Shown here: piece after piece, positions 2 to 14,764 of the stretch | How positions within the stretch are numbered: the first letter of the stretch is position 1 | Layout of the letters: each line of letters begins with the position of its first letter | Source: a virus | Virus record (IMG/VR): IMGVR_UViG_3300020201_000067 | Span: 1 to 33,865 of that record | Direction: 5' to 3' (one strand) | DNA: 33,865 bases | Notes under the pieces: generated by a model | Database searches by the model: none | Seen by the model: the letters and a program-made list of their open reading frames with translations, nothing else | Told to the model about the DNA's origin: nothing | Made by a program: the position numbers and the translations under genes

Positions 2-214
2 ATAAAGTCTTCTAATTTTATTTCTATATATCGACATATAAAGGGTGACTCTTATAACAAGATAGGCATTTATAATATTCAAAAAGATAAAATGGATTAT
101 AAATCATGCTCAAAAAATGAAAATACTAAAATTTTAAAAGAAGATAAATTAATAATTTTAAATCAATTTGAAATTTTAGTTAATGAAATTATAATTCAGG
201 ATATAATTGTTTAA
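2..214 (+). CDS. Small protein of unknown function, 5' end outside window, tail-bearing
   Basis: An open frame enters from the left edge and ends at a TAA, giving the last 70 residues of a protein whose start is not in the window. I recognise no fold. The piece is rich in I, K, N and Y. It ends in NEIIIQDIIV, the first of ten copies of a C-terminal tail shared by genes in the first 12 kb. The stop codon lies inside a 31-bp tandem duplication that also supplies the start of the next gene. The role is unknown; by position it belongs with the four small genes that follow. Confidence 0.6.
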   Translation: MKSSNFISIYRHIKGDSYNKIGIYNIQKDKMDYKSCSKNENTKILKEDKLIILNQFEILVNEIIIQDIIV

Positions 215-267
215 AAAAATAAGCTCAGCATATGATATTGTTTAAAAAAATAAGCTTAGCATCTGAT
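206..267 (+). repeat. 31-bp imperfect tandem duplication
   Basis: Bases 206-236 and 237-267 match at 29 of 31 positions; each copy starts ATTGTTTAAAAAAATAAGC. The differences are C225 versus T256 and A232 versus C263. Copy 1 holds the stop of the upstream gene (212-214) and the ATG of the next gene (232). In copy 2 that ATG is CTG. The period is not a multiple of three, so the two copies are read in different frames. The duplication therefore sits exactly on a gene junction. Confidence 0.9.
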
Positions 268-564
268 AAAGAAATATCTGGATATTTTAAGGTGGATAAG
301 TATCTTTATAATATTACAGGTTTCGTTTATTGTAAACGCATAGATTTTATTATTGCTTGTCGAAACCCCGATCTTGATATTTCAACTTTTTGCGGATATG
401 ATCCGGTTACTGAAATGTTTTATGATAGTTCTTTTAATAATATACTAAATATAAAAAAAATAAAAGACCCAGCATTATTAACGCTATTTAAAAATACAAA
501 ACTGTTAAATGAAACTTTAAAAAAAGCTGAAGATTATTTTATAATAGAAAATATAGTTAAATGA
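232..564 (+). CDS. Small protein of unknown function, tail-bearing
   Basis: A 110-residue protein I do not recognise. The N-terminal two thirds alternate aromatic and hydrophobic residues as expected for beta strands (YLYNITGFVYCKRIDFIIAC), followed by a probable helix and the tail IIENIVK. The ATG lies in the first copy of a 31-bp duplication, and no Shine-Dalgarno sequence precedes it. The stop overlaps the next start as ATGA, which suggests translation by termination and re-initiation. No signal peptide or membrane segment is apparent. Size, position in a run of similar small genes and shared tail suggest an early phage-host interaction protein, but that is inference. Confidence 0.7.
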   Translation: MILFKKISLASDKEISGYFKVDKYLYNITGFVYCKRIDFIIACRNPDLDISTFCGYDPVTEMFYDSSFNNILNIKKIKDPALLTLFKNTKLLNETLKKAEDYFIIENIVK

Positions 565-872
565 ATGATAAATTTTTGAGCAAATTAAACCAAAAAGCAC
601 ATGATGAGATAATCTTGTCTTTAAATGATGAAGCAAAGTTAGCCATTATAGACATTTCAGAAACTGGAAAATTTGGAAGTAAAGATTTCAAAAGTATACG
701 TAATGCTATGCGTTCTTTTCATACTTTATGTAAAGTAGGGCTCGTTAGTGCTGGTAGAAATGGTGGCATTATTATCAATAAAGAATGCGAAGATGCTTTT
801 CAATTATTAAAATCAACAAATGATTATGAAAGATTGATTAAAGAACGTATTATCAAAAAAATTATAGAATGA
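561..872 (+). CDS. Small protein, possible winged-helix fold, tail-bearing
   Basis: A 103-residue protein that differs from its neighbours in composition: mostly helical, with a stretch (about residues 45-75) that looks like a recognition helix followed by a wing hairpin, FHTLCKVGLVSAGRNGG. A winged-helix DNA-binding role is plausible but not proven. It ends in RIIKKIIE, the same tail as the beta-rich small proteins around it, which argues that the tail is a separate module. It starts in an ATGA overlap with the previous gene, ends in an ATGA overlap with the next, and has no Shine-Dalgarno sequence. Confidence 0.7.
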   Translation: MNDKFLSKLNQKAHDEIILSLNDEAKLAIIDISETGKFGSKDFKSIRNAMRSFHTLCKVGLVSAGRNGGIIINKECEDAFQLLKSTNDYERLIKERIIKKIIE

Positions 873-1225
873 ATAGTTTTTATAAAGTACAAGACCAGTT
901 GACAATAAATGGTTTTATTTATTTATTTATTTTAAGTTTTTATAAACCAAATATTAATTCCATATATAATGTTGACTCAATATATGTTTCATATATCGGC
1001 ACAAAAGATAGATATGAGTATGCTCATCTTGGCATATACGATTTTGAAAATAAAACTCTTATAGATAATACTGGCAATATGTATTTTCGAACTGATTCTC
1101 AAGTAAATTGCGTTAAAAAACTATTCAAGTCTAATATTTTTGATACAAACTTATTACATGATATTATTGAAGATTTAGTTAAAAAATATAAAAATGAACT
1201 TATGATTATGGATATCATACAATGA
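869..1225 (+). CDS. Small protein of unknown function, tail-bearing
   Basis: A 118-residue protein of unknown function. The N-terminal part is rich in aromatic and branched residues in an alternating pattern (predicted beta); the last 40 residues look helical and end in NELMIMDIIQ, another copy of the shared tail. An early hydrophobic run, about residues 14-26 (INGFIYLFILSFY), is short for a membrane span and fits a core strand better. ATGA overlaps link it to the genes on both sides, and there is no recognisable ribosome binding site. Confidence 0.7.
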   Translation: MNSFYKVQDQLTINGFIYLFILSFYKPNINSIYNVDSIYVSYIGTKDRYEYAHLGIYDFENKTLIDNTGNMYFRTDSQVNCVKKLFKSNIFDTNLLHDIIEDLVKKYKNELMIMDIIQ

Positions 1226-1575
1226 TTTTTAAATTTATATTAGATAATATTTTTGTAAGCAGAAAATGGTACGAAAATTATAGCGATATTAGCAAAAGTG
1301 GATGGTATTTTGTGTATTATCCAGGCAAACATAACAAGCATCTGTTAGCAAATAGTGCTATTTATGTTATTGTTGATGAGTTTTTAGGATCAAATGTTCA
1401 CACGGCATGCAGCACTCATGCGACAAACAATAATATTTATATTGGCTATAATCGTGAGAGTGACCACTGCATTTATTATGGACCAATTAAAGTAAATAAA
1501 CAAAATATTAAACCGCCGAAGAAAATGGTCGAGAAGATTCGAAATGAAAATATAATAAAACACATTGTAGAGTAA
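1222..1575 (+). CDS. Small protein of unknown function, tail-bearing
   Basis: A 117-residue protein, last of the run of small genes before the recombinase. It contains a W/Y-rich beta-like region (SGWYFVYYPGKHNKHLLANS) and several His and Cys residues around 50-85, but no clear metal motif. It ends in RNENIIKHIVE, matching the shared C-terminal tail. It starts in an ATGA overlap with the gene before. The downstream gene, by contrast, has its own strong ribosome binding site. Function unknown. Confidence 0.7.
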   Translation: MIFKFILDNIFVSRKWYENYSDISKSGWYFVYYPGKHNKHLLANSAIYVIVDEFLGSNVHTACSTHATNNNIYIGYNRESDHCIYYGPIKVNKQNIKPPKKMVEKIRNENIIKHIVE

Positions 1576-1594
1576 TTTAAAAGGAGAAATAATT

Positions 1595-2557
1595 ATGAGT
1601 ATTGATTTAGATAAAATTGTTGTAACTGTTAAGAAAAGTTTTGGAAAAGATAAGGGTTTGGCTGATAAGGTTAGTCGAGGAGATATGATTCACAGGCCAA
1701 CCGGTGATGAAGATTTTGTTCATTGGAAAGGATCCCCTTTTGAGCAGCTTACTGGAGTGAAAGGATTACCTTTTGGTAAGGTTGTACAAATAGCTGGAAA
1801 ACCAGATTCTGGTAAATCTACACACGCCGCTCAATTTATGAAATTAGCCCAAGATCAAGACTGCACTGTAATCCTGTTTGATTCAGAAAATAAATTTAGT
1901 GCTAATCGGTTTGATAAATACTTTGGAGGCAAAAGTGACGATCTTTTGGTGATTACATCAAAGATGATCCTAGAGGGCGCAGAAATGTGTGTGCGTTATA
2001 TTAAAGCAATTAAAGAGCAAGATAGGGCACGCAAAATATTATTGGTTTGGGACAGTATCGGTGGTTCATTACCCAAAAATGAAGGAGATGGACACTCTAT
2101 GGATGCTTCTAAGCAAATGGCAGCAGCAGCCAAAGAAAATGGTGCGGCATTACGAGGTATTCTTAGAGAAATTGAAGCTTGGAGAGATCCTAAAACTGGA
2201 AAAGAAACCATAGCAGTATTATTAATTAATCAAAGTTATAGTAATATTGGTTCTCCTGGTCAAACAGAGGCTGGAGGTAATAAGATTTTTTATTATAGCT
2301 CGATAATTTTGCAGTTAACACGTAAAAAAGACCTTATTGTTACTCGCAATAAAATTAAGCGCAAAATAGGAATTGTATCAAGAGCTAAAGTAAAAAAGAA
2401 TCATTTGTTTGATGGAGAGGATTCTATTTCCGAACTGGACTTAGCAATTAGGGCCGGTGGTATTACATCAATGCTTGATTCTGTCGCTGCAGAAAAAGAA
2501 GGCTGGGATGTTGGTGGAGAGGATGACAATGATACGGAGGGCGAATCAGAAGATTAA
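1595..2557 (+). CDS. uvsX: RecA/UvsX-like recombinase
   Basis: A 320-residue RecA-fold ATPase that would form filaments on single-stranded DNA and drive strand exchange in recombination-dependent phage replication. Visible motifs are Walker A GKPDSGKST (68-76), Walker B KILLVWDS (147-154), and the strand plus DNA-binding loop region VLLINQSYSNIGSPGQTEAGG just past residue 200. The C-terminus is acidic (GGEDDNDTEGESED), as in RecA and UvsX proteins. It is shorter than E. coli RecA or T4 UvsX. A strong Shine-Dalgarno (AAAAGGAG) precedes the ATG. SSB and a RuvC-like resolvase nearby fit a recombination module. The last 29 bases overlap an HNH endonuclease gene. Confidence 0.93.
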   Translation: MSIDLDKIVVTVKKSFGKDKGLADKVSRGDMIHRPTGDEDFVHWKGSPFEQLTGVKGLPFGKVVQIAGKPDSGKSTHAAQFMKLAQDQDCTVILFDSENKFSANRFDKYFGGKSDDLLVITSKMILEGAEMCVRYIKAIKEQDRARKILLVWDSIGGSLPKNEGDGHSMDASKQMAAAAKENGAALRGILREIEAWRDPKTGKETIAVLLINQSYSNIGSPGQTEAGGNKIFYYSSIILQLTRKKDLIVTRNKIKRKIGIVSRAKVKKNHLFDGEDSISELDLAIRAGGITSMLDSVAAEKEGWDVGGEDDNDTEGESED

Positions 2558-3476
2558 TTATAATATAGGCTGTATTTTTGAATATACTAATAGAAAAATA
2601 TGTAATAATTGTAAAATAATAAAATTATTTACAGAATATTCATTTTATAATAAATCTAAAAATATATTAAAAAATTCTTGTAAATCTTGTTTAAATCAAG
2701 AATCTAAAGAATACATGCTTAGAAAGATTGGGCGTAAAATTGTTGACAGGCCAAAAATATTAATTAATGGTAAAACTTTTGCTCAAATGAATGATATAGA
2801 GAAGAAACTTTATTTCATAGAATATAGAAAAATAAACTCAGCTAGAATTAAAAAGCAAAGAGAAAATTATAGAACAAACAATAAAGAAAAAATTGATGCC
2901 TTACTTAAAATAAGAAAAGCAAAATATAAAGGCTCTAAAATGGAGGCGCGAGATAAGCAGGCAACAAAACAATGGAGAAAAGATAAACGCGAAAAAGATC
3001 CGTTTTTTAGATTATTAGAGAGTGTATCTTCTAATATAAGAATATCTTTAAAATCATCAAATATAAAAAAAAATAAATCATCAGCTAAATTGCTAGGACT
3101 TGTGATCGAAGATTTTTTTAAAAATTTAGAAAATCAATTCGAACCGTGGATGACTTGGGAAAATAGAGGAATTATTAGCAATAACTACAATAAAGATGAT
3201 ATTTCAACTTTCACTTGGCAACCAGATCATATAATCCCACAATGTGCTTATATATTATCTAAAGATGGCAACACTATTTGGGAAGATTCTATACGGGATC
3301 TTTGGTCAAGCAAAAATTTGAGACCACTAGAATCAAAGGCCAATAATATAAAAAGAGGTTTAGTAGTACAAAAAGCCATCGATATTATACAGATTCATCC
3401 GCACATAACCCAATACTTAACCCCTGAATACCTCAAAAAAGTCGAAGAATTTAGGAAAACCAAAACCAACGCATAA
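2529..3476 (+). CDS. HNH homing endonuclease
   Basis: A 315-residue free-standing HNH nuclease. An N-terminal zinc finger uses C25/C28 and C51/C54. A basic, lysine-rich middle follows, and the HNH core includes WQPDHIIPQ (D233, H234) and NLRPLESKANN (from N263). Such proteins cut DNA at a target site and spread their own gene by repair. I chose the ATG at 2529 because GGAGAGG at 2516-2522 lies six bases upstream; an upstream in-frame ATG at 2457 would reach deep into the recombinase gene without a ribosome site. It overlaps the end of the recombinase gene by 29 bases, so it probably arrived by insertion at this junction. Codon use is more A/T-rich than in the recombinase. Confidence 0.88.
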   Translation: MIRRANQKINYNIGCIFEYTNRKICNNCKIIKLFTEYSFYNKSKNILKNSCKSCLNQESKEYMLRKIGRKIVDRPKILINGKTFAQMNDIEKKLYFIEYRKINSARIKKQRENYRTNNKEKIDALLKIRKAKYKGSKMEARDKQATKQWRKDKREKDPFFRLLESVSSNIRISLKSSNIKKNKSSAKLLGLVIEDFFKNLENQFEPWMTWENRGIISNNYNKDDISTFTWQPDHIIPQCAYILSKDGNTIWEDSIRDLWSSKNLRPLESKANNIKRGLVVQKAIDIIQIHPHITQYLTPEYLKKVEEFRKTKTNA

Positions 3477-3484
3477 GGCAATAT

Positions 3485-3826
3485 ATGTTACAAGAAGCAA
3501 CTGCCAATCAGCAGGCACTCAGTAAAATTAAACAAGGAGGCTCAACATTACCTCTCCAAAAGATACTAATAGCTGGATTGAAACCAAATGAAATTATTTA
3601 TTATTATGCGCTTACCTTAAAGGAGGGCCCATTATATTTAGAAATTATTGGTTTCGAATGTCCACCAGAGGTAAATCACATAAAATCCAAAAAAAATGTT
3701 ACAAAAATAATAACATACAATGATGCACAAAATTACGCCAGAGAAAACAAAGACACTATTATTAGTAAAAAAATAAGCTGGCAAAGAATAATCGAGATAC
3801 AAAACTTAAGCTACATATTAAAGTAA
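3485..3826 (+). CDS. Hypothetical protein
   Basis: A 113-residue protein I cannot assign. It begins eight bases after the HNH gene and ends 48 bases before SSB. The middle reads like alternating beta strands (NEIIYYYALTLKEGPLYLEI) and the C-terminal part like a helix ending NLSYILK, which only weakly resembles the shared tail of its neighbours and is not counted with it. There are no cysteine clusters, signal peptide or membrane segment. Its place between recombinase and SSB suggests a role in DNA metabolism, on position only. Confidence 0.6.
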   Translation: MLQEATANQQALSKIKQGGSTLPLQKILIAGLKPNEIIYYYALTLKEGPLYLEIIGFECPPEVNHIKSKKNVTKIITYNDAQNYARENKDTIISKKISWQRIIEIQNLSYILK

Positions 3827-3874
3827 GCTTAAGAAAATAAGTTAAATAAAACATAAAATACAAAAGGATAAAAT

Positions 3875-4594
3875 ATGAGTACATTTGGAGCAACAAGTTG
3901 GGATACAGAGCCATCAAATGGTGGTCAAAATCGTAAAGGTTCTGATACATTCTTGAAATTAGAGTCTGGCGATAACGTAATGCGTATTGTCACGAAGCCT
4001 CATGAATATTTAGTACATGACTTTAAGCCTATTAAAGATGCGCCTGGTTATGGCACTAAGCTTAAATCATCAATGTATCATGGTGCGGATCCATTATGTG
4101 AGGCGCCATGGAACCTTAAACCAAAACAACGTTGGTATCTTGGCGTAATTGATCGGAAAACTCAGAGTTATAAAATTCTAGATATTTCGTCATCAGTTTT
4201 TAAAGGTATACAAGTACTAGTTCGTGATGAAGATTGGGGGGATCCATCTCAATATGATGTTAACGTGAAAGTTAATAAACAGGGCGGTGCCGCAGGATAT
4301 TACATGGTGACACCAAAATCAAAAAAACCATTAAGCGCTTCTGATTTAGATATTCGCAATAATATTAATCCGGAAGATCTGAAACGCAGGTGTACTCCTC
4401 CAACATACGAAGATGTAAAAAAACGTATGGACGAGGTAATTACAAAGGCAAACATTTCAGGCGATAATGTTACCGCTTCAGTGCCTGTTGTAAAAAGTGA
4501 TGTTGTGGCAAAGGTAGAAACAGTGGAAACACCTCAAACAGTGGAAACAGATACCAATGTTGACGATTTTGATTTTCCAGCTGCTGATGAATAA
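3875..4594 (+). CDS. ssb: Single-stranded DNA-binding protein
   Basis: A 239-residue protein of the gp32-like phage SSB type. The N-terminal core has the pattern FLKLESGDNVMRIVTKPHEY, followed by basic and aromatic beta strands (KQRWYLGVIDRKTQSYKILD) suited to binding single-stranded DNA. The last 50 residues are low-complexity, ending in the acidic DDFDFPAADE, the kind of tail SSBs use to recruit partner proteins. It would coat ssDNA during replication and cooperate with the recombinase upstream. AAAGGAT precedes the ATG. A rho-independent terminator follows the stop, so it probably closes a transcription unit. Confidence 0.85.
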   Translation: MSTFGATSWDTEPSNGGQNRKGSDTFLKLESGDNVMRIVTKPHEYLVHDFKPIKDAPGYGTKLKSSMYHGADPLCEAPWNLKPKQRWYLGVIDRKTQSYKILDISSSVFKGIQVLVRDEDWGDPSQYDVNVKVNKQGGAAGYYMVTPKSKKPLSASDLDIRNNINPEDLKRRCTPPTYEDVKKRMDEVITKANISGDNVTASVPVVKSDVVAKVETVETPQTVETDTNVDDFDFPAADE

Positions 4595-4615
4595 TAGATA
4601 AATAACAGATTAATT

Positions 4616-4641
4616 AAGGCAATCTTCGGGTTGCCTTTTTT
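4616..4641 (+). terminator. Rho-independent terminator after ssb
   Basis: A perfect 7-bp stem, AAGGCAA (4616-4622) with TTGCCTT (4631-4637), has the loop TCTTCGGG and continues into a run of T. It lies 21 bases after the SSB stop and 29 bases before the RuvC-like start. It is the clearest terminator in the window. Confidence 0.88.
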
Positions 4642-4669
4642 ATTATATTACTACTGTCATATATACAGT

Positions 4670-5233
4670 ATGAAAACTAAAATATTAGGCTTAGATATAT
4701 CGTCATCAACTATTGGCGTATCATTAATTGAACAAAACGATAAGAATTTGAAATTAAAACTTTTACATTACGAATATTATAAACCTCCAAAAGAGGGCTC
4801 TATATTTGAAAGATTATCTGCAATTAAAAGTTATATTTTAGAAATATTGTCCAAACATAAGCCTGATGAAGTAGTAATTGAAGATTACATACAATTCATG
4901 TCTGGAGGTTCCGGGGCAAAGACGATTCAATTATTAGCAATTATTAATAGAACAGTAGGCTTGACAGTGTATGAAAAAATTGGTAAAGTTCCCCATCTAC
5001 TTGGTGTTCCTACGATTAGAAAATTAATTAAGCCTGAGGGATATGAAGGCAAGGTAGGCAAAGAAGAAGTGCCAGAGATTGTTGCCGAAATTTTAGGAAT
5101 TAAGTTTCCTTGGGAATATAATAAAAAAGCTCGTGCGATAATTGAAAATTATGATATTGCTGATGGTATTGCTGTAGGAATAGCTTGGACAAAGTTTCGA
5201 CGTGAACAAATGATAAAGGATATAGTAGAGTGA
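4670..5233 (+). CDS. ruvC: RuvC-like Holliday junction resolvase, tail-bearing
   Basis: A 187-residue RuvC-superfamily nuclease with an RNase H-like fold. Acidic residues at the expected places are D9 in LGLDISSSTIG, E71 in VVIEDYIQF, and D162/D165 in NYDIADGIAVGIAW. It would cut branched recombination or replication intermediates, probably before packaging. The ATG at 4670 is preferred over a TTG inside the upstream terminator (4631), because MKTKILGLD is the natural start of the fold. No Shine-Dalgarno is visible. The C-terminus, RREQMIKDIVE, carries the tail seen on the small unknown genes; this is the only tail-bearing protein here with a recognised function. Confidence 0.87.
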   Translation: MKTKILGLDISSSTIGVSLIEQNDKNLKLKLLHYEYYKPPKEGSIFERLSAIKSYILEILSKHKPDEVVIEDYIQFMSGGSGAKTIQLLAIINRTVGLTVYEKIGKVPHLLGVPTIRKLIKPEGYEGKVGKEEVPEIVAEILGIKFPWEYNKKARAIIENYDIADGIAVGIAWTKFRREQMIKDIVE

Positions 5234-5260
5234 GTGTTTAAGGCCATACTCTGCCAAACA

Positions 5261-5293
5261 AAATATTATTGATGGAGATAGAAAATAATATTT
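5261..5293 (+). other. Perfect 10-bp inverted repeat in the largest gene gap
   Basis: AAATATTATT (5261-5270) pairs exactly with AATAATATTT (5284-5293) around a 13-base loop containing GGAGA. It lies in the 140-base gap 5234-5373 after the resolvase. All pairs are A-T and no T-run follows, so it is not a standard terminator; an operator or mRNA structure is possible. The rest of the gap holds a TATAAC that could be a -10 box (near 5331) without a convincing -35. I saw nothing else there. Confidence 0.5.
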
Positions 5294-5373
5294 AGTATTG
5301 ATTTGTTTCTGATATTCTCACTGTTTTAATTATAACATGAGATTATTTTAATTATTTACAATTATAAAAAAAA

Positions 5374-5643
5374 ATGACTAAAAATATAATAAATTGGTTA
5401 AATGTTGAAGAAATAACACAGCTTGGTATTTATTATTGTTATAATACTAATAATACTAAAAATACTAAAAATTCAAAACTCATGGTTAATTATCCTTATG
5501 ATATTGAATATTTAAAAGGCAGTGTGTGGGCAAAACGTACTTTATTTTTTCATTCTTCTTCAGGAATTGATCCCGGCCCTCCATCAAAAAATGTAATAAA
5601 GAACTTTAAAATAAAATTAATGATTAAGGAAATAATAGAATGA
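5374..5643 (+). CDS. Small protein of unknown function, tail-bearing
   Basis: An 89-residue unknown protein. It contains a short repeat, [12 protein letters not shown] (about residues 25-36), encoded by AATACT-type repeats, then aromatic-rich segments, and ends in KLMIKEIIE, the shared tail. No Shine-Dalgarno precedes its ATG, only an A-rich stretch. Its stop overlaps the dnaJ start as ATGA, and the tail codons include AAGGAAA, which can serve as the ribosome site for dnaJ. The two genes are therefore probably translationally linked. Confidence 0.65.
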
Positions 5644-6614
5644 ATTTACAAGAAGCATATAAATTACTAGATGTAAAAGAAGGATCAACAGAAGACGAGG
5701 TAAATAAAGCTTTTCGTAAGTTGGCAATTAAATATCACCCTGACAAAAATAAAGATGACCCCATTGGTGCTGAAAAGAAATTTAAAGAAATTAATGAGGC
5801 ATTTCAAACAATTAATAATCCTGAAAAATTTAGAGATAGCGGGGTTGGTTTTCAGCAACAGCATAATCATGGTGGATTTGATATGTCAGATATTTTTCGA
5901 CATGTTATGCACCAACAGCAAGTTCCACGTAATCAAAAACCAACTGCTCAGGCATCCGTAAAAATAACTTTTGCTCAGTCAGTATTGGGTTGTGCCAAAG
6001 ATATTACTTTTAAGCGTTATGAAAAGTGTAGTGGGTGTAACGGTAATGGCGGTAAAACAACTGTAGATAATTGTATTAGTTGTGGAGGAACAGGCCAAAA
6101 ACAAATGGTTAGTGGTAATGTCAGAATGGTGCGAGGATGTGAGGTTTGTAATGGTTCTGGTAAAAAGTTTGATGCTTGTAAGTCTTGTGTTGGTATAGGT
6201 TCTAAGACAGAATCGTTTACATGTAATGTGAATTTACCTGGAGGATTAGAAAATCAACAAAGAATCAGGTTGGAGGGAGCTGGTAATTTTGAAGTATCTT
6301 CGCCTCACGGAGATATGAGATCGCCTGTTATTATTGCTATTGAAGTTGAAAAAGATTTTGATATGATTTTGGTAGAAGAAAATGTAGTATCAAATATTAC
6401 AATTAATCTTTTAGAAGCACTTCAGGGTACTAATAAAAAAGTTAGAACGGTTAAGGGTGATTTGACACTAAAAGTTCGAGCTAAGACGAAAAACAAAGAT
6501 ATACTAAAGGTTGGAGGATATGGTGTAGCAGGAGCCGGTGCGCACCTATTTAACATTAACGTTGATTATCCGGATAACGTTGATGATTTGATAAACATTT
6601 TAGAGAAAGAATAA
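5640..6614 (+). CDS. dnaJ: DnaJ (Hsp40) co-chaperone
   Basis: A 324-residue DnaJ with J domain (about 1-65, HPD at 33-35) and four CxxCxGxG-type zinc repeats at C130/C133, C145/C148, C167/C170 and C180/C183, followed by the substrate-binding C-terminal domains. The fourth repeat is slightly altered (CKSCVGIG). The Gly/Phe linker is short and contains few glycines, with a Q/H-rich stretch (QQQHNHGG) instead. DnaJ stimulates the ATPase of DnaK; no dnaK is in the window, so it may recruit the host chaperone for replication or capsid assembly. It overlaps the preceding gene by four bases and is followed one base later by a zinc-ribbon gene. Chaperone genes of this completeness are uncommon in phages. 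Confidence 0.95.
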
Positions 6615-6615
6615 T

Positions 6616-6942
6616 ATGGGGTTTTTAATTAATTGTACAACTAAAGGCTGTCGTCAGGAAGTTGAACCAATGTATGATTCAGTTACCAATGTTGCTAGTT
6701 GCCCGATTTGTTTAAATGAAATAACAAATATAACTCAATTTGCTAAAAATCAAATGAAATCTTTAGGCCATGCAAAAAGAGAAGATGTGAAAACAGCTTT
6801 CTCTGTTAAGTGTGTAAATTGTGGCAAAATTGATAAGCCTGATGTAAAGGGCAATAAGGGCTTTTGTAAAAGTTGCAAATGTGATATGAAGTTAACGGGA
6901 CCATTCTTACAAATGATGAAAGTAAATAAATTTTCCGAATGA
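6616..6942 (+). CDS. Zinc-ribbon protein, possible primase partner
   Basis: A 108-residue protein with two cysteine clusters: C7/C12 with C29/C32, and C66/C69 with C84/C87 (plus C89). These would form two zinc ribbons. It starts one base after dnaJ and overlaps the primase gene by four bases (ATGA). DnaG-type primases normally carry an N-terminal zinc domain, and the next gene lacks one, so this protein may supply the template-reading zinc module in trans. That is inference from position; a transcription or assembly role is also possible. Confidence 0.7.
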   Translation: MGFLINCTTKGCRQEVEPMYDSVTNVASCPICLNEITNITQFAKNQMKSLGHAKREDVKTAFSVKCVNCGKIDKPDVKGNKGFCKSCKCDMKLTGPFLQMMKVNKFSE

Positions 6943-7730
6943 GTATTACTGATTTTTCAAAACAAATTCAAGATCGCTCCAAAGCCTATAACCAAGTTTT
7001 ATCTGCTTGTTCCATTTTGTTAAAAAATCATCCATCAGCGAATCAAGCAAAAAAATATCTTGATAGCCGATGTTCTCAGTATGATCAGGAAAAATTTAAT
7101 TTTGGTTACTTTCCGTCAAATGAACACCTTAATGATTTGTTTGACATTATGGATCGCTCCGTGATAGAGTCTTTAGGTTTAATATATAATAAAACTGTTC
7201 AAGATTCCAATGTTCTTAGAGATATGCCTTTTGGTTTATTAAATACAAATAATTTAATTATGCCATTTAAAAATCTTTATGGTGATACATTAGCTCTGGT
7301 TGGAAGAACATTGCTGGATAAATCTGATTGCACAAATCAGAATATACAAAAATATAAATATACTAAAAATTTTAATAAAAGATTTCATTTATTTGGTTTA
7401 AATTTTGCAAAACACAGTATATTAAGCAATGATTATGTAATTTTAGTTGAAGGTCAGTTTGATTGCATATCTGCTCAGTCAAATGGCTTTCACAATGTTG
7501 TTGCAATTGGTGGTGCAAGTCTGTCAACTCATCAGTTTAATATTCTCAACAGACTAACTAATAATTTTTATTTCCTATTAGATAATGATGCTGCTGGAGA
7601 AAAGGGATTTCTTTCGGCTCAAAGTAAATATTGTTCAAAAATTAACATTAAAAAAATAGAACTGCCAAAAGAATATAAAGATGTTGATGAATACTTGAAA
7701 AAAAGTATTAACTATAATATATTTATCTAA
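6939..7730 (+). CDS. DnaG-type primase core (TOPRIM), no zinc domain
   Basis: A 263-residue primase catalytic core. The region IMPFKNLYGDTLALVGRTL (107-125) matches the N-terminal part of the DnaG RNA-polymerase domain. The TOPRIM domain has EGQFD (E171) and LLDNDAAGEKG (D215, D217), the metal-binding acidic residues. It would make RNA primers for phage replication. The usual N-terminal zinc finger and any helicase domain are absent; the adjacent zinc-ribbon gene overlaps it by four bases and may substitute. The helicase must lie elsewhere. A TOPRIM protein with another role is possible but less likely. Confidence 0.82.
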   Translation: MSITDFSKQIQDRSKAYNQVLSACSILLKNHPSANQAKKYLDSRCSQYDQEKFNFGYFPSNEHLNDLFDIMDRSVIESLGLIYNKTVQDSNVLRDMPFGLLNTNNLIMPFKNLYGDTLALVGRTLLDKSDCTNQNIQKYKYTKNFNKRFHLFGLNFAKHSILSNDYVILVEGQFDCISAQSNGFHNVVAIGGASLSTHQFNILNRLTNNFYFLLDNDAAGEKGFLSAQSKYCSKINIKKIELPKEYKDVDEYLKKSINYNIFI

Positions 7731-7737
7731 AACTTAC

Positions 7738-7836
7738 ATGATAATTCTTCCTGAACTAAAGGTAAAATATCAGCTATTACATAGGTTTTGTGATAATTTG
7801 TATAAAAATTTTATAATTGAATATATTATAAAATGA
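7738..7836 (+). CDS. 32-residue micro-ORF consisting largely of the shared tail
   Basis: A 32-codon frame runs from ATG 7738 to TGA 7834-7836 and reads through YKNFIIEYIIK to the stop, a close match to the C-terminal tail of its neighbours. Its stop overlaps the next start as ATGA, the arrangement seen at other tail genes. No Shine-Dalgarno is seen. It is either a genuine microprotein carrying little besides the tail, or the remnant of a larger tail-bearing gene. Expression cannot be judged from sequence. Confidence 0.45.
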   Translation: MIILPELKVKYQLLHRFCDNLYKNFIIEYIIK

Positions 7837-8102
7837 AAATAATAAAAATTAAACATGAAGAATTCTGCTTAAAGGAACTTTCACCATCATTAGATATTAT
7901 TGTTTATAATTATAATGGCGCAGATGAATTGAATTATGGTGACCCATATCAATTTAAAAATATATATGCAATTTTTAATAAATCTAATGATGCATTTACC
8001 ACATATAATGGTCATAAATTAAACACACCATTAATAGAATTTTTTAAAAATGAAATGAACATTTATTTAAATGAGTTAATAATACAAAATATTATCGAAT
8101 AA
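7833..8102 (+). CDS. Small protein of unknown function, tail-bearing
   Basis: An 89-residue unknown protein with a beta-like N-terminal region (SPSLDIIVYNYNGADELNYG) and a C-terminal helix ending in NELIIQNIIE, one of the best copies of the shared tail. It starts in an ATGA overlap with a 32-codon frame that ends in a similar tail. There is no Shine-Dalgarno. The stop is TAA with no overlap, followed by an 86-base gap (8103-8188) in which I see no clear signal before the LAGLIDADG gene. Confidence 0.65.
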   Translation: MKIIKIKHEEFCLKELSPSLDIIVYNYNGADELNYGDPYQFKNIYAIFNKSNDAFTTYNGHKLNTPLIEFFKNEMNIYLNELIIQNIIE

Positions 8103-8188
8103 CTAATAATAATCACTTTCAGTATCGTGCCATCAAACTTAGGATATATACTTCTTTAAGATTGGTGGTTTTTCTATTTGAAGGTTAT

Positions 8189-8899
8189 ATGATTCGTAAT
8201 AATGATACTACAAATTATGATTTTTTCTCAAAAGATACAGAAGAGTCATTTTACTGGGCAGGATTTATTGCTGCTGATGGGTGCGTTTATTCTAAAAAAT
8301 CTAAATATTCAATTTTAAAAACATTAGATATTAATCTTTCAATAAATGACAGAGATCATTTAGAAAAGTTTAAATTAGCATTAAATTCATCAAAAAAGTT
8401 ATATATCAAAAATCAAGGAAAAAATATTAGTTTTTATATAGCTAAAAAATTTAATCCAATTTATGATGATTTATTAAGATTTGGTATAACAGAAAGGAAA
8501 ACACATACATATAATATGCCTCAATGGCTAATCAACCATCCATTAGTACGTCATTTTATCAGAGGAACATTTGATGGTGATGGTGGTTTTTATTTAAATA
8601 ATAAAGAAAAATATTTACAAATGCGATCTCGCATGACAGGCACAATGCCATTTTTAATTAATTTTAAATATATATTAGAAAAAAATTGCAATTATTCTTC
8701 TGCATCTAAGCCATACATGTATAATGGTACAGGATCTTTAAATTTTTCTGGTAACTTAAGATGCGCACTAATAGGAAGTTACATGTATGACAATTCTAAT
8801 GTTTTTATGATGCGAAAATTTAATCAATATTTAAAAGCTAAAGATTTAGTTAAACCAAAGTATTTAGGGCTAGTAAAGGAAAAACATGGCAAAAAATAA
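8189..8899 (+). CDS. LAGLIDADG homing endonuclease
   Basis: A 236-residue protein with two LAGLIDADG helices: WAGFIAADG (23-31) and IRGTFDGDGG (124-133), each ending in the acidic residue that binds the catalytic metal. Two motifs in one chain mean it can act as a monomer on an asymmetric site. The ATG at 8189 is chosen because GAAGG lies just upstream; a TTG at 8162 would add nine residues that match nothing. The last 14 bases overlap the start of the next gene and contain that gene's ribosome site, so the insertion sits precisely between genes. No intron or intein boundary is visible around it. Confidence 0.9.
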   Translation: MIRNNDTTNYDFFSKDTEESFYWAGFIAADGCVYSKKSKYSILKTLDINLSINDRDHLEKFKLALNSSKKLYIKNQGKNISFYIAKKFNPIYDDLLRFGITERKTHTYNMPQWLINHPLVRHFIRGTFDGDGGFYLNNKEKYLQMRSRMTGTMPFLINFKYILEKNCNYSSASKPYMYNGTGSLNFSGNLRCALIGSYMYDNSNVFMMRKFNQYLKAKDLVKPKYLGLVKEKHGKK

Positions 8900-9368
8900 A
8901 AATAATGGCGATAATGATGATACATATGGGCGGGTTGATAGGACTAAAAACAGATCAGATTCATACCAACATGTTCTCTTAGAACAGCCGTGCTCACCGG
9001 AAATGATGACCGAAGTAGCTGACTCTAAAGGGATTTCTGCACAGCTTAATCCTTTTGGCTATAATGAGGAAATCTTGGAACTGCAGGACCAGCTGAAGGC
9101 GGCATTCTGGAGACTTGTTGATACTGGCCTGACTAAGAGGCAGGCTGAGGTGGTAAAGCTTTATAGTCAAGGCAGGACGCAAACAGAGATTGCTAAATTA
9201 TTAAGTGTGAATCAAAGTTCTATAACTAAAAGTCTAAACGGAAATGTTAGCTACGAAGATAAAACACATAAGAAGTCATATGGCGGTAGTTTGAAAAAGC
9301 TAAAAAAACTTGCGCAAAAAGATGTGGAAATTCTTGACATTATAGATCAGATCGCCGAATTATCTTAA
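8886..9368 (+). CDS. Helix-turn-helix protein, sigma region 4-like
   Basis: A 160-residue protein. Residues 82-120 form a helix-turn-helix of the sigma-70 region 4/LuxR type: LTKRQAEVVKLYSQGRTQTE then IAKLLSVNQSSITKSLNGN. The N-terminal 60 residues are polar and probably unstructured; the C-terminus is lysine-rich and helical. It may be a transcription regulator or a reduced sigma-like factor for phage promoters, or a small-terminase-like DNA-binding protein. AAGGAAA precedes the ATG, inside the end of the LAGLIDADG gene. Its base composition is less A/T-rich than that of the endonucleases on both sides, which supports their being later insertions. Confidence 0.72.
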   Translation: MAKNKNNGDNDDTYGRVDRTKNRSDSYQHVLLEQPCSPEMMTEVADSKGISAQLNPFGYNEEILELQDQLKAAFWRLVDTGLTKRQAEVVKLYSQGRTQTEIAKLLSVNQSSITKSLNGNVSYEDKTHKKSYGGSLKKLKKLAQKDVEILDIIDQIAELS

Positions 9369-9403
9369 CTAATAATTACGTTATGAACTTTTAAAATGAA
9401 ATT

Positions 9404-10519
9404 ATGCCCATTTCAAGATCTGTTCCGGTAATTGTAAAAAATGATGAAAAATATTGCTTTGGGTGCTCTACTATAAAGAAGAAGTTTGCATTTAATAAAG
9501 ATAAAAAATCAAAAGATGGCTTAACTTTTAAATGTGCTGGATGTATTTACTTAATACGTGATCAAAAAGTTTCTAAATTTATTATAGTTACACCTAACAT
9601 TATTACCTGTAAAACATGTAATAAAGATAAAAGTTATTTAGAGTTTGGAATAAGAAAAGTTTCTGAAACTGGTAGAAATGATCATTGTCAATCTTGCTTT
9701 GCTAAAACATATGATTATGAACAGGCTCGCCAAGATCGCAGGTTTAGAGTGAATTGGTTAAGATCTTTAAAAGAAAAAGATCCTTGCGTCGATTGTGGAA
9801 AGTATTTCCCAGGAGAATTAATGGATTTCGATCATTTAGGAGATAAGAAATATAATATCTCATATATGGTATTGCATAATCTTTCTAAAAAAGAAATCAA
9901 AAACGAGATATCTAAATGTGAAATTGTTTGTTGTTACTGCCATGGTAACCGTACAAGAAAAATGCATGATAAAAAGTATCCTAATGCTATTGAAAATTTG
10001 CGTAATGCTCAAAAGCACAGGAAAATTAAAGATAAATTAATTTTTGAGGCTAGAAATAAACCTTGCGCTGTATGTAATATACCGTATCCAATTCATAATA
10101 TGCAATTAGACCATACTAATCATAATAATAAAATTATGGCACTTAGTGTTAGCGGAAATTATTCGCTAGTTGCTGTAAAATTAGAAATTGATAAATGTCA
10201 ACCTATTTGTGTTGGATGCCACCGAACAAAATCACTGAAGGAACAGCTAGATAGGGATTACACTATAAAAGTCACAAAAAAAGATATTAAATCTAAAAAA
10301 GATGCTAGATATGCTTTTACACAGAGTTTTTTAGATACCGAAAATCAATTGAAAAAATGTTTGGGCTGTTTTATTATCAAACCGTTTTCAGAAATGAAAC
10401 AACCTCAAAGGCAAGCTAAATTTAACAAATGTATTAATAAATATTGTATTGATTGTGATAAAATTTACACACAAGAAATAGAGAATTTTAATTCCGGTCC
10501 AGAATATCCTTATCTATAG
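9404..10519 (+). CDS. Double-HNH homing endonuclease with extra zinc fingers
   Basis: A 371-residue protein made of five cysteine modules. Two N-terminal CxxC-CxxC fingers (C18/C21 with C44/C47; C69/C72 with C95/C98) are followed by two HNH domains in tandem: C128/C131, D143-H144 and CYCHGNR; then C221/C224, D236-H237 and CVGCHRTKS. A last finger uses C319/C322 with C348/C351. HNH domains cut DNA with a single metal; the fingers presumably read the target site. The two HNH copies differ, so this is an old internal duplication or fusion. It ends in TAG, the only TAG stop I confirmed. It sits directly after the HTH gene. Confidence 0.85.
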   Translation: MPISRSVPVIVKNDEKYCFGCSTIKKKFAFNKDKKSKDGLTFKCAGCIYLIRDQKVSKFIIVTPNIITCKTCNKDKSYLEFGIRKVSETGRNDHCQSCFAKTYDYEQARQDRRFRVNWLRSLKEKDPCVDCGKYFPGELMDFDHLGDKKYNISYMVLHNLSKKEIKNEISKCEIVCCYCHGNRTRKMHDKKYPNAIENLRNAQKHRKIKDKLIFEARNKPCAVCNIPYPIHNMQLDHTNHNNKIMALSVSGNYSLVAVKLEIDKCQPICVGCHRTKSLKEQLDRDYTIKVTKKDIKSKKDARYAFTQSFLDTENQLKKCLGCFIIKPFSEMKQPQRQAKFNKCINKYCIDCDKIYTQEIENFNSGPEYPYL

Positions 10520-10567
10520 CTTAACACACTCTTTCCACACAAACGCACCATAACTTTGCATTGCCTT

Positions 10568-11464
10568 ATGTATAATAAACTACTTTCCATGGCTACAGCT
10601 TATCTCAAGGCTTCACTTCGCAATAGTTTTAATCTTACTGAATTCAAAAATATGGAACCAGAAAAGGCATATTACTATGCTGACGAAACATTGCCTATAA
10701 TCAGCTCTGGGTCGTCACGAGTAGCGTATATATTGTCTAGTACTAAGGTGTTAAAGTTAGCATTAAATGTAAAAGGTATAGCTCAAAATGAAACGGAGTA
10801 TATTATGTTTCAAAAATATAAGAGCACAAACTTAATAACTAAGGTATACGAAACTGACAACGATTCTCACTGGATGATTTCGGAATTAGTTCGTCCGGCT
10901 ACAAATAGTGACTTCGATAATATACTTGGAGTATCATTTGATGATTTCACGGAGTTAATCAGTTTAACTTGTTATGATGAAGAGATATATGATCATTTAG
11001 ATGAAAAATCAAAGCAATTTATTAAAAATGTATATGATTTAAAAACTGATGCTAACTTAGTTGATGCTGACCAGTTAACATCTTGGGGTAAAACAGTAGA
11101 TGGAATGCTAGTATTATTAGATACTGGTGCTGATAGAGAAATAATTCAGCAATATTACCAATTTGATCGTGGTTTTAATACTTATGAGCCATTTTATAAA
11201 ACTATTAATTCATCTGAAGCATTTAATAAATTAAAATCTATGATTGAAAGTGATTATGTGACAGATGATGCTGAAGTTGCATATTTAAGTCATTCTTTAA
11301 TTAAAAATAAAAATTTAGCTGAGGCATTTTTAGAATTAAAAAATAATAGGCATTATGATAATCAATCTTTTGATCGGATAGTTAGTATATTTGCTGAAAA
11401 TGATGATTGGAACACTTTATTATTTGGCCAAGATTATGATGCAGATGATTACGACAATGCTTGA
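10568..11464 (+). CDS. Protein kinase-fold-like protein, paralogue A
   Basis: A 298-residue protein with features of a reduced kinase fold: a glycine/serine loop ISSGSSRVAYIL (45-56), a lysine in VLKLA (K63) at the place of the ATP-binding lysine, and LVLLDTG (181-187) at the place of the DFG metal-binding motif, preceded by SWGKTVDG. No clear HRD-type catalytic loop is visible, so activity is uncertain. It is clearly related to the gene at 14081, both beginning M-[YF]-N-x-[LI] and sharing the loop, lysine and LLD-x-G. The ATG at 10568 is chosen by that match rather than TTG 10556. The last 75 residues are absent from the paralogue. Confidence 0.6.
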   Translation: MYNKLLSMATAYLKASLRNSFNLTEFKNMEPEKAYYYADETLPIISSGSSRVAYILSSTKVLKLALNVKGIAQNETEYIMFQKYKSTNLITKVYETDNDSHWMISELVRPATNSDFDNILGVSFDDFTELISLTCYDEEIYDHLDEKSKQFIKNVYDLKTDANLVDADQLTSWGKTVDGMLVLLDTGADREIIQQYYQFDRGFNTYEPFYKTINSSEAFNKLKSMIESDYVTDDAEVAYLSHSLIKNKNLAEAFLELKNNRHYDNQSFDRIVSIFAENDDWNTLLFGQDYDADDYDNA

Positions 11465-11488
11465 CAAGCGTTGATAAAATGTTATAGT
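11461..11488 (+). promoter_or_regulatory. Sigma-70-type promoter with extended -10
   Basis: TTGACA (11461-11466), a 16-base spacer, then TATAGT (11483-11488), with TGT directly before the -10 box (extended -10). The -35 is the perfect host consensus and overlaps the stop of the upstream gene. Transcription would begin near 11494-11497, on or beside the ATG at 11495. Confidence 0.6.
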
Positions 11489-11494
11489 GAGCCT

Positions 11495-11869
11495 ATGTCA
11501 ATTGTAGATGCTAAATTCAATATGTATTTTTCATTCATTACTAATAGTGGTGAAAATTTAGTTTATATTACCTCAGGATCTTTTTATAGCAGAAATCGTC
11601 AAGATTTTACTTCATTACAGCTAGAACTGTCTGAGTTTTTAAAAACAGATTGTTTTAAATTATTTTTATCTAATAACAAAACAAAAATAGTTAATACTTT
11701 AAAATTTAATTTAATTAGAGATGAAAAGAAATTTTTATCTATTTTAGATATGTCAAATAAAGAATTGTTAGAAAGAAAAAATTCAATTTTGTTATTTGAT
11801 GGTGATTTATTAAGAGAACTTACTCATATAGCTATTAATGAATTATTGATTGAAAATATTATTATATAA
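11495..11869 (+). CDS. Small protein of unknown function, tail-bearing
   Basis: A 124-residue unknown protein from ATG 11495; a TTG at 11471 would lie within the promoter just upstream and is rejected. The first half looks beta-rich (FNMYFSFITNSGENLVYITS), the second helical, ending in NELLIENIII, the last copy of the shared tail in the window. Its own near-consensus sigma-70 promoter would start RNA almost at the ATG, so the message may be leaderless, or translation may begin at the in-frame ATG 11522. It lies between the kinase-like gene and the zinc-cluster gene. An early, host-polymerase-driven role is likely but unproven. Confidence 0.65.
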   Translation: MSIVDAKFNMYFSFITNSGENLVYITSGSFYSRNRQDFTSLQLELSEFLKTDCFKLFLSNNKTKIVNTLKFNLIRDEKKFLSILDMSNKELLERKNSILLFDGDLLRELTHIAINELLIENIII

Positions 11870-11895: not shown

Positions 11896-14088
11896 ATGCG
11901 CTTTAATGCTGATTGGCAATTATATAATGAAATTGATAAAAAAGCTGGGGCTTTCTTTAAGAAAGCTCAACAGTTTAATATGCCTTTTAGCTTTCCTGAA
12001 GAGTCATCTTTGGTTAATCCTGAAGTTGATTCATTAGGTTTATATTGGTTATGTTTTGAGTGTAAAAAAAGAATTAATCAAGAAGACATAAGGGAGATAG
12101 AGAATTTTAAAAAAATTAAGATAAAAGAGTTTATTGACAGTGAAACTACACCTTTAACAAAAGAAAAGCTTGATGTTTTAATCAGTAAAATTGTCCAAGA
12201 AATAAATAAATTTGATGTAATTATTGAAGATCGCTTTGGAAGACAGGTTTATGACTTTTATGATGCACTAAAAGAAGTGTTAAAATCAATGCTCGATTCA
12301 ATATCTTTCGATGAATTAACACAAATAATAAGAGAATATGAAAAGACTATTGTAAATTATGGTAAAGTTGTAAATATTTATAATAAATTAAAATTATTAT
12401 TTAATTATCATGAATTTGTTCATACATATACTGGAACTGATGATCCAGAAGGCGTAAAAAAACAGTTGTTTGGTTTAGAACATAAAGCTTTATCAATAAT
12501 TAATGAAATTAATAATGAGTTGCAATTAATTGTTGGTAAATCGCCACAAGAAGAAATTACAATTACAAAAGAAGCTCCTATCTGTGGAGATCATGATATG
12601 AATTATTATTGTGATTTTCCTACATGTGACAACTTTACACTAGATAATCATAAAATATTCTTAGTAGAGAGTTTTGAGTCGAAGTTATTAGAGAAAATAA
12701 TTAAAACAGAAAAGAGTTATCAATATTGTGAAAATCATGCCGCAAGATGTGAATCTTGCGGGGACGACTTAGCTATATATGATGCTGTTGACGAAAATAG
12801 TCAGAAACCAGTATTTCATGAAGAAAAATGGTATCACTCAAAATGTTATAATGATAATTTCACATCGTGTGATGAGTGCAACAGTATAGTAGATAGGGAA
12901 TCTGCACTTTGGAAAGAAAGTACTCAACAATCTTTATGTCAAGATTGTTATGTTAATGACGAAGAAGACAGTATAGATAAGGAGCCAGATTTTAATGAAG
13001 CAAAAAAGTTAGTTCATGAAATTAAAAAGCATCAAGGTTCACTTTATCCACTTGATGCATCTATTATTATTGGAAATATTCTTCCAACTTTAATATCAGC
13101 TCACAAAAAATTTGGCAATATCGCTTTCGATCCAGATAGTAGCCAAAAAGAATCTGAAAATAAAGCTCTGCAATCAATATTATCACGTATACAGAAACCT
13201 GAAGCAAAGGCAGCTGTTGAGACTGAGTTACAAACTAATGGTATTGAAGGTGCTATTAAAACATTTCAAAATAATATTATATATCAAACTAGCATGAAAG
13301 AGAAATATCCGACATTAAAGGGTTATCGCCCTTTGCCTGTAAATGTGGCCATTGAAAGTAGTGATAGTCACTCCGGTATGGTAGTTGCTCTTTATCCTTC
13401 TGACGAAATGTTGGCCTGGGCTAATAAGAGTTTGCCAGGAGCAGCTAATTTTTATCAAAATGTATTAGCTGGTATGGGTCATCATAGTGGTGCTCTTGGT
13501 TATGCTCGTTTAAGTGAAAGTAACGGCAATCTTTTAATTGATAATTTGCAAACAGATATTGATAAGCAATCTAAGGCTATCAGTAATTATGAAAAAAGAT
13601 TAATAGAAAAAGTTGATTCTTTTGAAAGAGAAATAACTAGGATTAATTACTTAGTACAATATTTAAATGTAGAGCACGACAACGAGATAATAAAACAACA
13701 CAAAGTAGATATAAAATCTTGGCAAGAAAAATCAGATCAGGCAGAAAAAATTCTAACTAACTATAATGCTTATGTTGTATTTTGGACAAACGCTGTTGAT
13801 AAATTTTGGGCACCATATCTTTTAGATACAATTAAACAATATGCTAAAGCCGCTGGTAAAAAAGCATATCTTACCAGTTATGATATGCAGGTAGAAAAAT
13901 GGCCAAACCTTCCAAAACGAAATAAAGATGTTTACGATCGTCTCCCTGACATGATGGGTATGGCTCAAGACAAAGTTTATGTTAAGCCTGAGAGTTTAAG
14001 TGGTAAAGAATGGTTATTAAAACGAGTTGCTAATTATTGCGATAAGTTTTACAAATTAGCTATTAAAAGGAAACAATTTTATGTTTAA
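11896..14088 (+). CDS. Large zinc-cluster protein of unknown function
   Basis: A 730-residue protein in three parts. A mostly helical N-terminus has an isolated C53/C56 pair. A cysteine/histidine-rich centre (about 230-351: C230, C239, C244, C278, C285, C288, C317, C325, C328, C348, C351, with H281 and H314) resembles LIM or treble-clef zinc modules. The C-terminal region has LGYARLSESNGNLLIDNLQ (534-552), a coiled-coil-like insert (556-625), and LLDTIKQYAKAAGKKAYLT (642-660), a layout that recalls GNAT-like or phage polyvalent-protein domains; this is tentative. The first residues contain FFKKAQQ, a motif repeated in virion-type proteins here. No Shine-Dalgarno is evident. It overlaps the next gene by eight bases. 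Confidence 0.6.
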   Translation: MRFNADWQLYNEIDKKAGAFFKKAQQFNMPFSFPEESSLVNPEVDSLGLYWLCFECKKRINQEDIREIENFKKIKIKEFIDSETTPLTKEKLDVLISKIVQEINKFDVIIEDRFGRQVYDFYDALKEVLKSMLDSISFDELTQIIREYEKTIVNYGKVVNIYNKLKLLFNYHEFVHTYTGTDDPEGVKKQLFGLEHKALSIINEINNELQLIVGKSPQEEITITKEAPICGDHDMNYYCDFPTCDNFTLDNHKIFLVESFESKLLEKIIKTEKSYQYCENHAARCESCGDDLAIYDAVDENSQKPVFHEEKWYHSKCYNDNFTSCDECNSIVDRESALWKESTQQSLCQDCYVNDEEDSIDKEPDFNEAKKLVHEIKKHQGSLYPLDASIIIGNILPTLISAHKKFGNIAFDPDSSQKESENKALQSILSRIQKPEAKAAVETELQTNGIEGAIKTFQNNIIYQTSMKEKYPTLKGYRPLPVNVAIESSDSHSGMVVALYPSDEMLAWANKSLPGAANFYQNVLAGMGHHSGALGYARLSESNGNLLIDNLQTDIDKQSKAISNYEKRLIEKVDSFEREITRINYLVQYLNVEHDNEIIKQHKVDIKSWQEKSDQAEKILTNYNAYVVFWTNAVDKFWAPYLLDTIKQYAKAAGKKAYLTSYDMQVEKWPNLPKRNKDVYDRLPDMMGMAQDKVYVKPESLSGKEWLLKRVANYCDKFYKLAIKRKQFYV

Positions 14089-14764
14089 TCAAATTTATAA
14101 ATTAGCAAGCATATATCTTTCTAAAATATCATCTACTCGTGGTAATTTTAGCTTGCAATATTTCAGCTCTCTTCCTCATGCTGCTGGTTTTAATTATGCT
14201 CAAGACAATTTAGAAATATTAGGTCACGGCTCATCTCGGGCAGCATTTATTTTGACTTCCAAGAAAGTTTTAAAGATATCAAAAAACCAAGCCGGTTTTG
14301 TGCAAAATAATAAAGAAAAAGAATTATATGAAAGATTTAAAAATACAGATTTATTGACTAAAGTTTTTGCATCAGATCCTAATGGTTCGTGGATTATTGC
14401 CCAATTAGTTCAACCGATTGAAACCGCCGCACAATTTAAAAAACTATCTGGTATTGGGTTTGCAGAATTAAAAAGTTATTTAAACGTAGACCCCGATGAT
14501 TATGAAGATTTAGAATTTGAGCTAGAAATGATGGGCATTGGCAAACAGGGTCAAGAGTTTTTAATGAAGGCTACAAGGTTAGCAAGAGAAGCCGATTTAA
14601 TTAAAGGTGATTTTGCTAAGCCCGATTCCTGGGGAAAATCAGCTGATGGAAATTTAGTTTTGTTAGATTATGGTTTAAATAATGAATTGTATAATAAGCA
14701 TTATCAAAGTGGTTTTGTTAAGAAACCTGATGATGATAACAAACAAACCAGAAGAAACGCTTAA
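14081..14764 (+). CDS. Protein kinase-fold-like protein, paralogue B
   Basis: A 227-residue protein related to the gene at 10568. It has GHGSSRAAFIL (48-58) as a phosphate-loop-like turn, K65 in VLKIS, and NLVLLDYG (191-198, D196) as the DFG counterpart, with DSWGKSADG just before in place of a catalytic loop. The overall order fits a small kinase-like fold; whether it phosphorylates anything is not clear. It ends soon after the DFG-like motif, so the usual C-lobe is largely missing. AAAGGAAA precedes the ATG. Both paralogues flank the zinc-cluster gene, which may be their partner or substrate. Confidence 0.6.
   Translation: MFNQIYKLASIYLSKISSTRGNFSLQYFSSLPHAAGFNYAQDNLEILGHGSSRAAFILTSKKVLKISKNQAGFVQNNKEKELYERFKNTDLLTKVFASDPNGSWIIAQLVQPIETAAQFKKLSGIGFAELKSYLNVDPDDYEDLEFELEMMGIGKQGQEFLMKATRLAREADLIKGDFAKPDSWGKSADGNLVLLDYGLNNELYNKHYQSGFVKKPDDDNKQTRRNA

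Follow-up and report, generated by a model that had tools for sequence, protein, structure and literature searches.

Short peptides shared by otherwise unrelated proteins are known from several systems. The internal proteins of bacteriophage T4 carry an N-terminal capsid targeting sequence that is removed by the prohead protease. Encapsulins and microcompartments take up unrelated cargo proteins that bear short terminal peptides, amphipathic helices in the case of microcompartments, and these peptides are read by one shell. In poxviruses, a large virus-encoded family of ankyrin-repeat proteins combines a variable repeat body with a constant C-terminal F-box/PRANC. Here, we analyzed the IMG/VR record IMGVR_UViG_3300020201_000067, a viral DNA of 33.9 kb taken in its complete length (33,865 nt, hereafter the window), in which ten genes encoding unlike proteins end with the same type of C-terminal tail, termed tail A. 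We propose that this tail is rather likely a lineage-specific docking helix, i.e. an address tag that would bring unlike small proteins to one partner.

If it serves to load proteins into the virion, as considered below, the tail would, like the T4 capsid targeting sequence, be a short shared peptide sending unrelated small proteins to one phage structure. However, it is exactly C-terminal rather than N-terminal, and it is present on up to about 100 proteins. Compared with the cargo peptides of encapsulins and microcompartments, it has another sequence and changes between sister phages. Its architecture is similar to that of the poxvirus ankyrin/PRANC proteins, but the constant element is limited to about 10 residues, there is no ubiquitin system and no homology. 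The transfer-messenger RNA (tmRNA, ssrA) tag is likewise a C-terminal peptide on unrelated proteins, whereas the phage tail is encoded in each gene. An origin from such a tag was rejected, since the tmRNA of a 435 kb relative of the window (contig G001) encodes ANDNADLTAAAA, unlike the tail. This tmRNA is located at L062:17812-18149 on the minus strand, alongside many tRNAs.

A further parallel can be drawn with the cultured huge phage G of Bacillus, in which small zinc proteins are likewise encoded in tandem arrays and have a conserved helix at the C-terminus, WKENDRYLAKIL. The regions 26-33 kb and 353-371 kb of its genome (NC_023719.1) encode about 28 zinc proteins with the near-terminal helix Y-W-K-E-N-D-R-Y-L-A-K-I-L. 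In contrast to tail A, this helix has another sequence, is found in the stretches read on one zinc family only, and lies at a varying distance from the stop codon. The zinc-ribbon expansion of phage G, about 35 copies proposed to be transcription factors or DNA-binding proteins, is the nearest published remark, the passages concerned containing no mention of a tail (Iyer et al. 2021, PMC7824862). In line with the sequence-only reading of the window, which knew of no described phage system with this tail, no published description of it was found in the literature searched.

The ten C-termini on which that reading was based are present, at positions 214, 564, 872, 1225, 1575, 5233, 5643, 7836, 8102 and 11869, and all ten genes end in the peptide, with E-x-[IM]-I-x-x-I-[IV]-x-stop as consensus. 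Isoleucine abounds in the tail and AT in these genomes, and one could thus object that Ile-rich endings are expected by chance in AT-rich genes. The chance expectation was taken from the internal 7-mers of the same proteins, which match at a rate of just 0.05% in the window and 0.05-0.14% overall. Against this background, the regular expression [ILMVF]I..[IL][IVL].$ matches 10 of the 41 window ORFs (open reading frames, called mechanically), for 0.02 expected. A 9-position profile trained solely on the C-termini of the related contigs G001, G002, G004 and G005, the window being excluded, places exactly the same ten tails above its threshold of 6, again for 0.02 expected (binomial p ~1e-24), while 0/2,584 C-termini reach this threshold in four sister huge phages. 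Moreover, none of the 816 C-termini of the sister G012, which is just as AT-rich (31% GC), is a tail-A ending. Together with the internal 7-mer control, this last result leads us to reject a compositional origin, which we regard as scarcely conceivable. C-termini drawn from AT-rich genes do not match as often as the tails, and the common C-terminal tag on unrelated bodies claimed from the window is borne out, far above chance.

The claim that selection acts on the peptide also holds. In the large phages, the entropy of the tail Ile codons is ~0 bits at positions 1 and 2 and 1.0-1.7 bits at position 3, which confirms the codon variation seen in the window; nearly fixed first two positions with a varying third one argue for selection on the peptide. 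Conversely, it could be imagined that the DNA stretch is kept as a signal for ribosome binding at, or coupling to, the next gene, the peptide being a by-product. Indeed, 52 of the 97 tailed genes of G001 overlap the next gene by ATGA, and in the tail stretches of G001 and G002 the Lys codon AAG is modestly over-used and Shine-Dalgarno-like 4-mers are commoner before the next genes that overlap in this way. These excesses suggest that the tail DNA does some double duty, as a secondary effect. As a full explanation, however, such an element is very improbable and was largely rejected on the basis of the codon-position pattern, position 3 being free while positions 1 and 2 are fixed. In addition, the Lys codon is AAA about as often as AAG, many tailed genes lack a nearby downstream start, and in G012, which uses a different tail (tail B, see below), Shine-Dalgarno-like 4-mers are no more frequent before overlapping genes than before non-overlapping ones, being rare in both cases.

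Tail A is confined to one clade of huge phages. Over all IMG/VR contigs, a strict DNA pattern of the tail gave 2 matches, both in one 435 kb contig, and a related pattern gave 21 stretches in seven contigs, which account for all viral matches; a strict DNA pattern of this kind had zero matches in 257 Gb of prokaryote genomes. Counted from ORF ends, after two false matches of the regular expression had been taken out, tailed ORFs amount to about 97 of 769 in G001 (435 kb) and 73 of 813 in G002 (459 kb), and to 49/241 in G004, 20/88 in G005, 8/33 in G007, 7/15 in G006 and 6/42 in G003, besides the 10/41 of the window. The number expected by chance is below one in every contig counted, these contigs being metagenomic and possibly incomplete. 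A looser tail-A pattern found none in 22 other terminase relatives nor in Bacillus phage G. In the terminase tree, G000, G001, G002 and G004 form one supported clade (100/99), and its sister clade comprises fifteen contigs, including G012, G017, G009 and G021. The window, a fragment of a huge-phage lineage, shows synteny with G001, G002 and G004 for genes encoding UvsX-like, SSB-like, RuvC, DnaJ-like, primase, sigma-like, terminase and portal proteins, the syntenic orthologues being roughly 38-67% identical. Used as a probe for relatives, the window RuvC found none and the terminase alone only two near-identical short contigs, and searches of isolates with terminase and SSB yielded no more than phage G and distant Bacillus phages.

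The bodies that carry the tail are diverse. Once their last 13 residues are removed, about 270 tailed proteins fall into 138 BLAST components, 111 of which are singletons (E<=1e-3), and they do not form a single paralogous family of mutually homologous bodies. The recognizable types are zinc proteins with an H-C-C-C signature, DUF4116 repeats (E down to 4e-25), HRxDGPA repeats, small beta-rich proteins and RuvC; the tail is also present on cysteine-free proteins. The tailed RuvC is seen in the window only. It matches PF02075 (E=1.7e-6) and phrog_159 (E=2.9e-15), and the best Foldseek match of its model is the RuvC of T. thermophilus (E=6e-12). Its orthologues in G001, G002, G004 and G006 end without the tail. 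On this point, the sequence-only reading, for which orthologues in related phages should keep the tail, is contradicted by RuvC but supported by the 7 to about 97 other proteins that the same phages do tail, so that the tail is modular rather than spurious. It is gained or lost independently of the body, as in RuvC.

Different tails are used by sister lineages on some of the same body types. They were found by an unbiased search of C-terminal residue triples, the reading covering 400 kb each of G017 and G021 and 340 kb of G009. In G012 (448 kb), about 70-80 proteins carry tail B, K-x-x-K-[LM]-K-A-F-x, whose last residue is mostly L, I, T or W; scanned as a short DNA pattern, tail B gives 38 matches in G012 and 0 in the control. 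Tail B is also carried by about a dozen proteins of G017, and about a dozen proteins of G021 carry tail C, C-x-[RK]-L-x-V-M-x. The same search revealed no tail in the 340 kb of G009. To illustrate the exchange, the HRxDGPA proteins bear tail A in 20 of the 22 listed for G004, the other two being short fragments, and tail B in most of the nine of G012. When aligned, the proteins of both phages have a common helix start, [ST]-x-E-E-[WF], followed by a lineage-specific ending in which tail B is one helical turn longer than tail A. In the isolate Agrobacterium phage Atu_ph07, one HRxDGPA protein possesses the helix start, but its end, LTEQEFLRKKRARNLS, is devoid of tag.

Judging from its anatomy and from predicted structures, tail A is probably a short helix. 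In the relatives, the complete consensus reads [ST]-x-[DN]-E-[hydrophobic]-[IM]-I-[KR]-[DNE]-I-I-E-COOH, with a helix capping box, S/T-x-x-E, at its start. The mean helical hydrophobic moment of the tails is only slightly above that of other C-termini (0.38 vs 0.30). The tail is acidic, with a mean net charge of -1.8 to -3.1, and its last residue is mostly Glu (76/97 in G001); a role as membrane anchor was dropped because of this acidity. In 34 aligned zinc proteins of G002, H6, C23, C26, C63 and one tail Ile are invariant. The last Cys of the zinc proteins is mostly at -11 from the end and otherwise often at -14 or -18, i.e. one or two additional whole helical turns, which fits a helical tail. 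The AlphaFold2 model of one G002 zinc protein (predicted local distance difference test score, pLDDT, 87.8) shows the tail as helix 63-72; a fold search with this model gave no relative in the PDB. In the model of the window RuvC (pLDDT 87.7), the last helix, 159-185, runs through the tail, and the pLDDT falls to 52 over the final 7 residues, as expected of an extension that is not packed on the body.

These observations bear on another explanation, according to which most tailed proteins would descend from one small, tandemly duplicated ancestor whose bodies have diverged while the last helix was kept for folding, the tail being a family signature. Tandem arrays of tailed genes are frequent in the 435 and 459 kb relatives, tailed genes are strongly clustered in G001 (53 adjacent pairs vs 12.9 in shuffled orders), the small beta-type bodies of the G001 arrays seem to resemble each other in layout, and the helix includes the zinc cysteine at -11. 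On the other hand, RuvC, DUF4116 and HRxDGPA proteins are separate families with untagged homologues elsewhere, cysteine-free proteins keep the tail, G012 has a different tail on the same body type, and the tail of the RuvC model is of low confidence and apparently unpacked. We thus consider such a diverged remnant unlikely.

The docking helix remains our preferred interpretation, since a fixed place, unrelated bodies and a single type per lineage are most readily understood as an address. A large number of small phage proteins, fast-evolving and of different bodies, would carry one tail and would in this way reach the same partner. This partner would be phage-encoded, would offer many equivalent sites and would co-evolve with the tag. 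The change of tag between related phages with similar bodies suggests that it is probably encoded by the phage and co-evolving, and around 100 different clients per genome suggest that it probably has many sites. Likewise, a tail confined to one clade and replaced in its sisters speaks for a phage-encoded partner rather than for a conserved hub of the host, e.g. the sliding clamp or RNA polymerase. A multivalent phage structure, either a prohead or virion core with co-injection or a phage-built intracellular compartment, is in our view somewhat more likely than a host hub. More broadly, each lineage of the clade may run an address code, with its own C-terminal helix on a large, modular, fast-changing set of small effectors that are gathered by a co-evolving phage-encoded partner, for example for virion loading and co-injection or as interchangeable adaptors; we put forward this extension tentatively, its chances being a little short of even.

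Several points weigh against the docking helix. When the gene content of phages with and without a tag was compared, the genes singled out were house-keeping-like and provided no clear receptor. Among the zinc proteins, the Cys at -11 is invariant along with the other three ligands, so that the helix there contributes to the fold as well. The tandem arrays imply that some tailed proteins are certainly paralogues, and shared descent thus explains part of the sharing. Finally, tail C is based on about a dozen proteins of one genome.

After a multivalent structure, the next candidate partner is a phage AAA+ machine that would use the tailed proteins as adaptors. At 417643-422234 in G001, eight tailed genes are bracketed by a gene of HExxH/VWA type and one for a MoxR-like AAA+ protein; the latter is 60% identical in G002, whereas its best matches in sister phages reach only 21-25%. 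This AAA+/VWA pair and a ClpP-like protein are leads, but both are also present in the untagged G009. One could also assume that the tail is a degron, marking early proteins for timed removal by a phage or host protease of the ClpP or AAA+/metallopeptidase type. A ClpP-like protein is encoded by 6/6 of the large phages examined, the AAA+ and HExxH/VWA-type genes flank a tailed array, and the constant distance to the carboxyl end would suit a C-degron. Yet an acidic tail that mostly ends in Glu is unlike the known ClpXP C-degrons, and changing LAA to LDD in the ssrA tag blocks degradation. Since, moreover, the protease-related genes occur in G009 too and the tmRNA tag of G001 is unrelated to the tail, we find a degron quite improbable.

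In the window, all ten tailed genes lie on the plus strand. The first, 2..214, encodes 70 aa with the tail NEIIIQDIIV at 182-214 including the stop codon (profile score 18.6), and its body is incomplete because the edge of the window cuts its 5' end. The following gene, 232..564 (110 aa), ends with DYFIIENIVK at 532-564 and is the weakest match with a score of 7.1, the other nine ranging from 11.9 to 23.2. Next come 561..872 (103 aa, KERIIKKIIE at 840-872, score 20.9), which has an ATGA overlap with the start of the following gene, 869..1225 (118 aa, NELMIMDIIQ at 1193-1225, score 21.9) and 1222..1575 (117 aa, NENIIKHIVE at 1543-1575, score 12.9), directly upstream of the UvsX-like gene. Conserved replication and recombination genes assigned with PHROGs (UvsX-like, SSB-like, DnaJ-like, primase and sigma-like) occupy 1595..9368 on the plus strand, with orthologues 38-67% identical in G001, G002, G004 and G006, and tailed genes are interspersed among them. 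These are the RuvC-like Holliday junction resolvase at 4670..5233 (187 aa, REQMIKDIVE at 5201-5233, score 20.7), the gene 5374..5643 (89 aa, tail at 5611-5643, score 18.1), which has an ATGA overlap with the DnaJ-like gene, a micro-ORF at 7738..7836 (32 aa, KNFIIEYIIK at 7804-7836, score 11.9) and the gene 7833..8102 (89 aa), whose tail NELIIQNIIE at 8070-8102 is the nearest to the clade consensus (score 23.2). The last one, 11495..11869, encodes about 124 aa from its ATG, or 132 aa if started from the TTG at 11471, and ends with NELLIENIII at 11837-11869 (score 12.2). Pfam and PHROGs searches gave no significant match for the small bodies of the window.

Other features were observed along the way. 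By eye, HNH-, LAGLIDADG- and GIY-YIG-like ORFs lie between conserved genes of the window (2457-3476, 8162-8899, 9404-10519, 21479-22534 and 24806-25654) and are possible homing endonucleases. Two paralogues, at 10556-11464 and 14081-14764, share the motif GSSR[VA]A[YF]ILxSxKVLK and look kinase-like by eye; the former matches phrog_4301, a family of unknown function. A 974 aa ORF of G001 (327888-330812) aligns with a 213 aa protein of the window (22516-23157) over 145 aa only, and could contain an intein or another insertion. Phage tRNAs with stop-reading anticodons were also detected: CTA in G001 (L065:8687-8760) and in G012 (L210:12881-13035), and a predicted TTA in G002 (L120:11588-11662). 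Stop-codon suppression or recoding is possible on this basis; among the G001 tail-pattern matches listed, the stop is TAG in 1/30.

Huge phages hold hundreds of small genes without known function. The tag sorts about a tenth of one huge-phage genome, and more of some fragments, into one functional set with no need of the bodies. The different tags on similar bodies also offer a handle on the phage partner, as the protein recognizing helix A in a given lineage should recognize helix B in another. If the tailed proteins are indeed effectors loaded into the virion or used as adaptors, the arsenal of a phage could be read from its genome by means of the tag, which would also be a ready targeting peptide.

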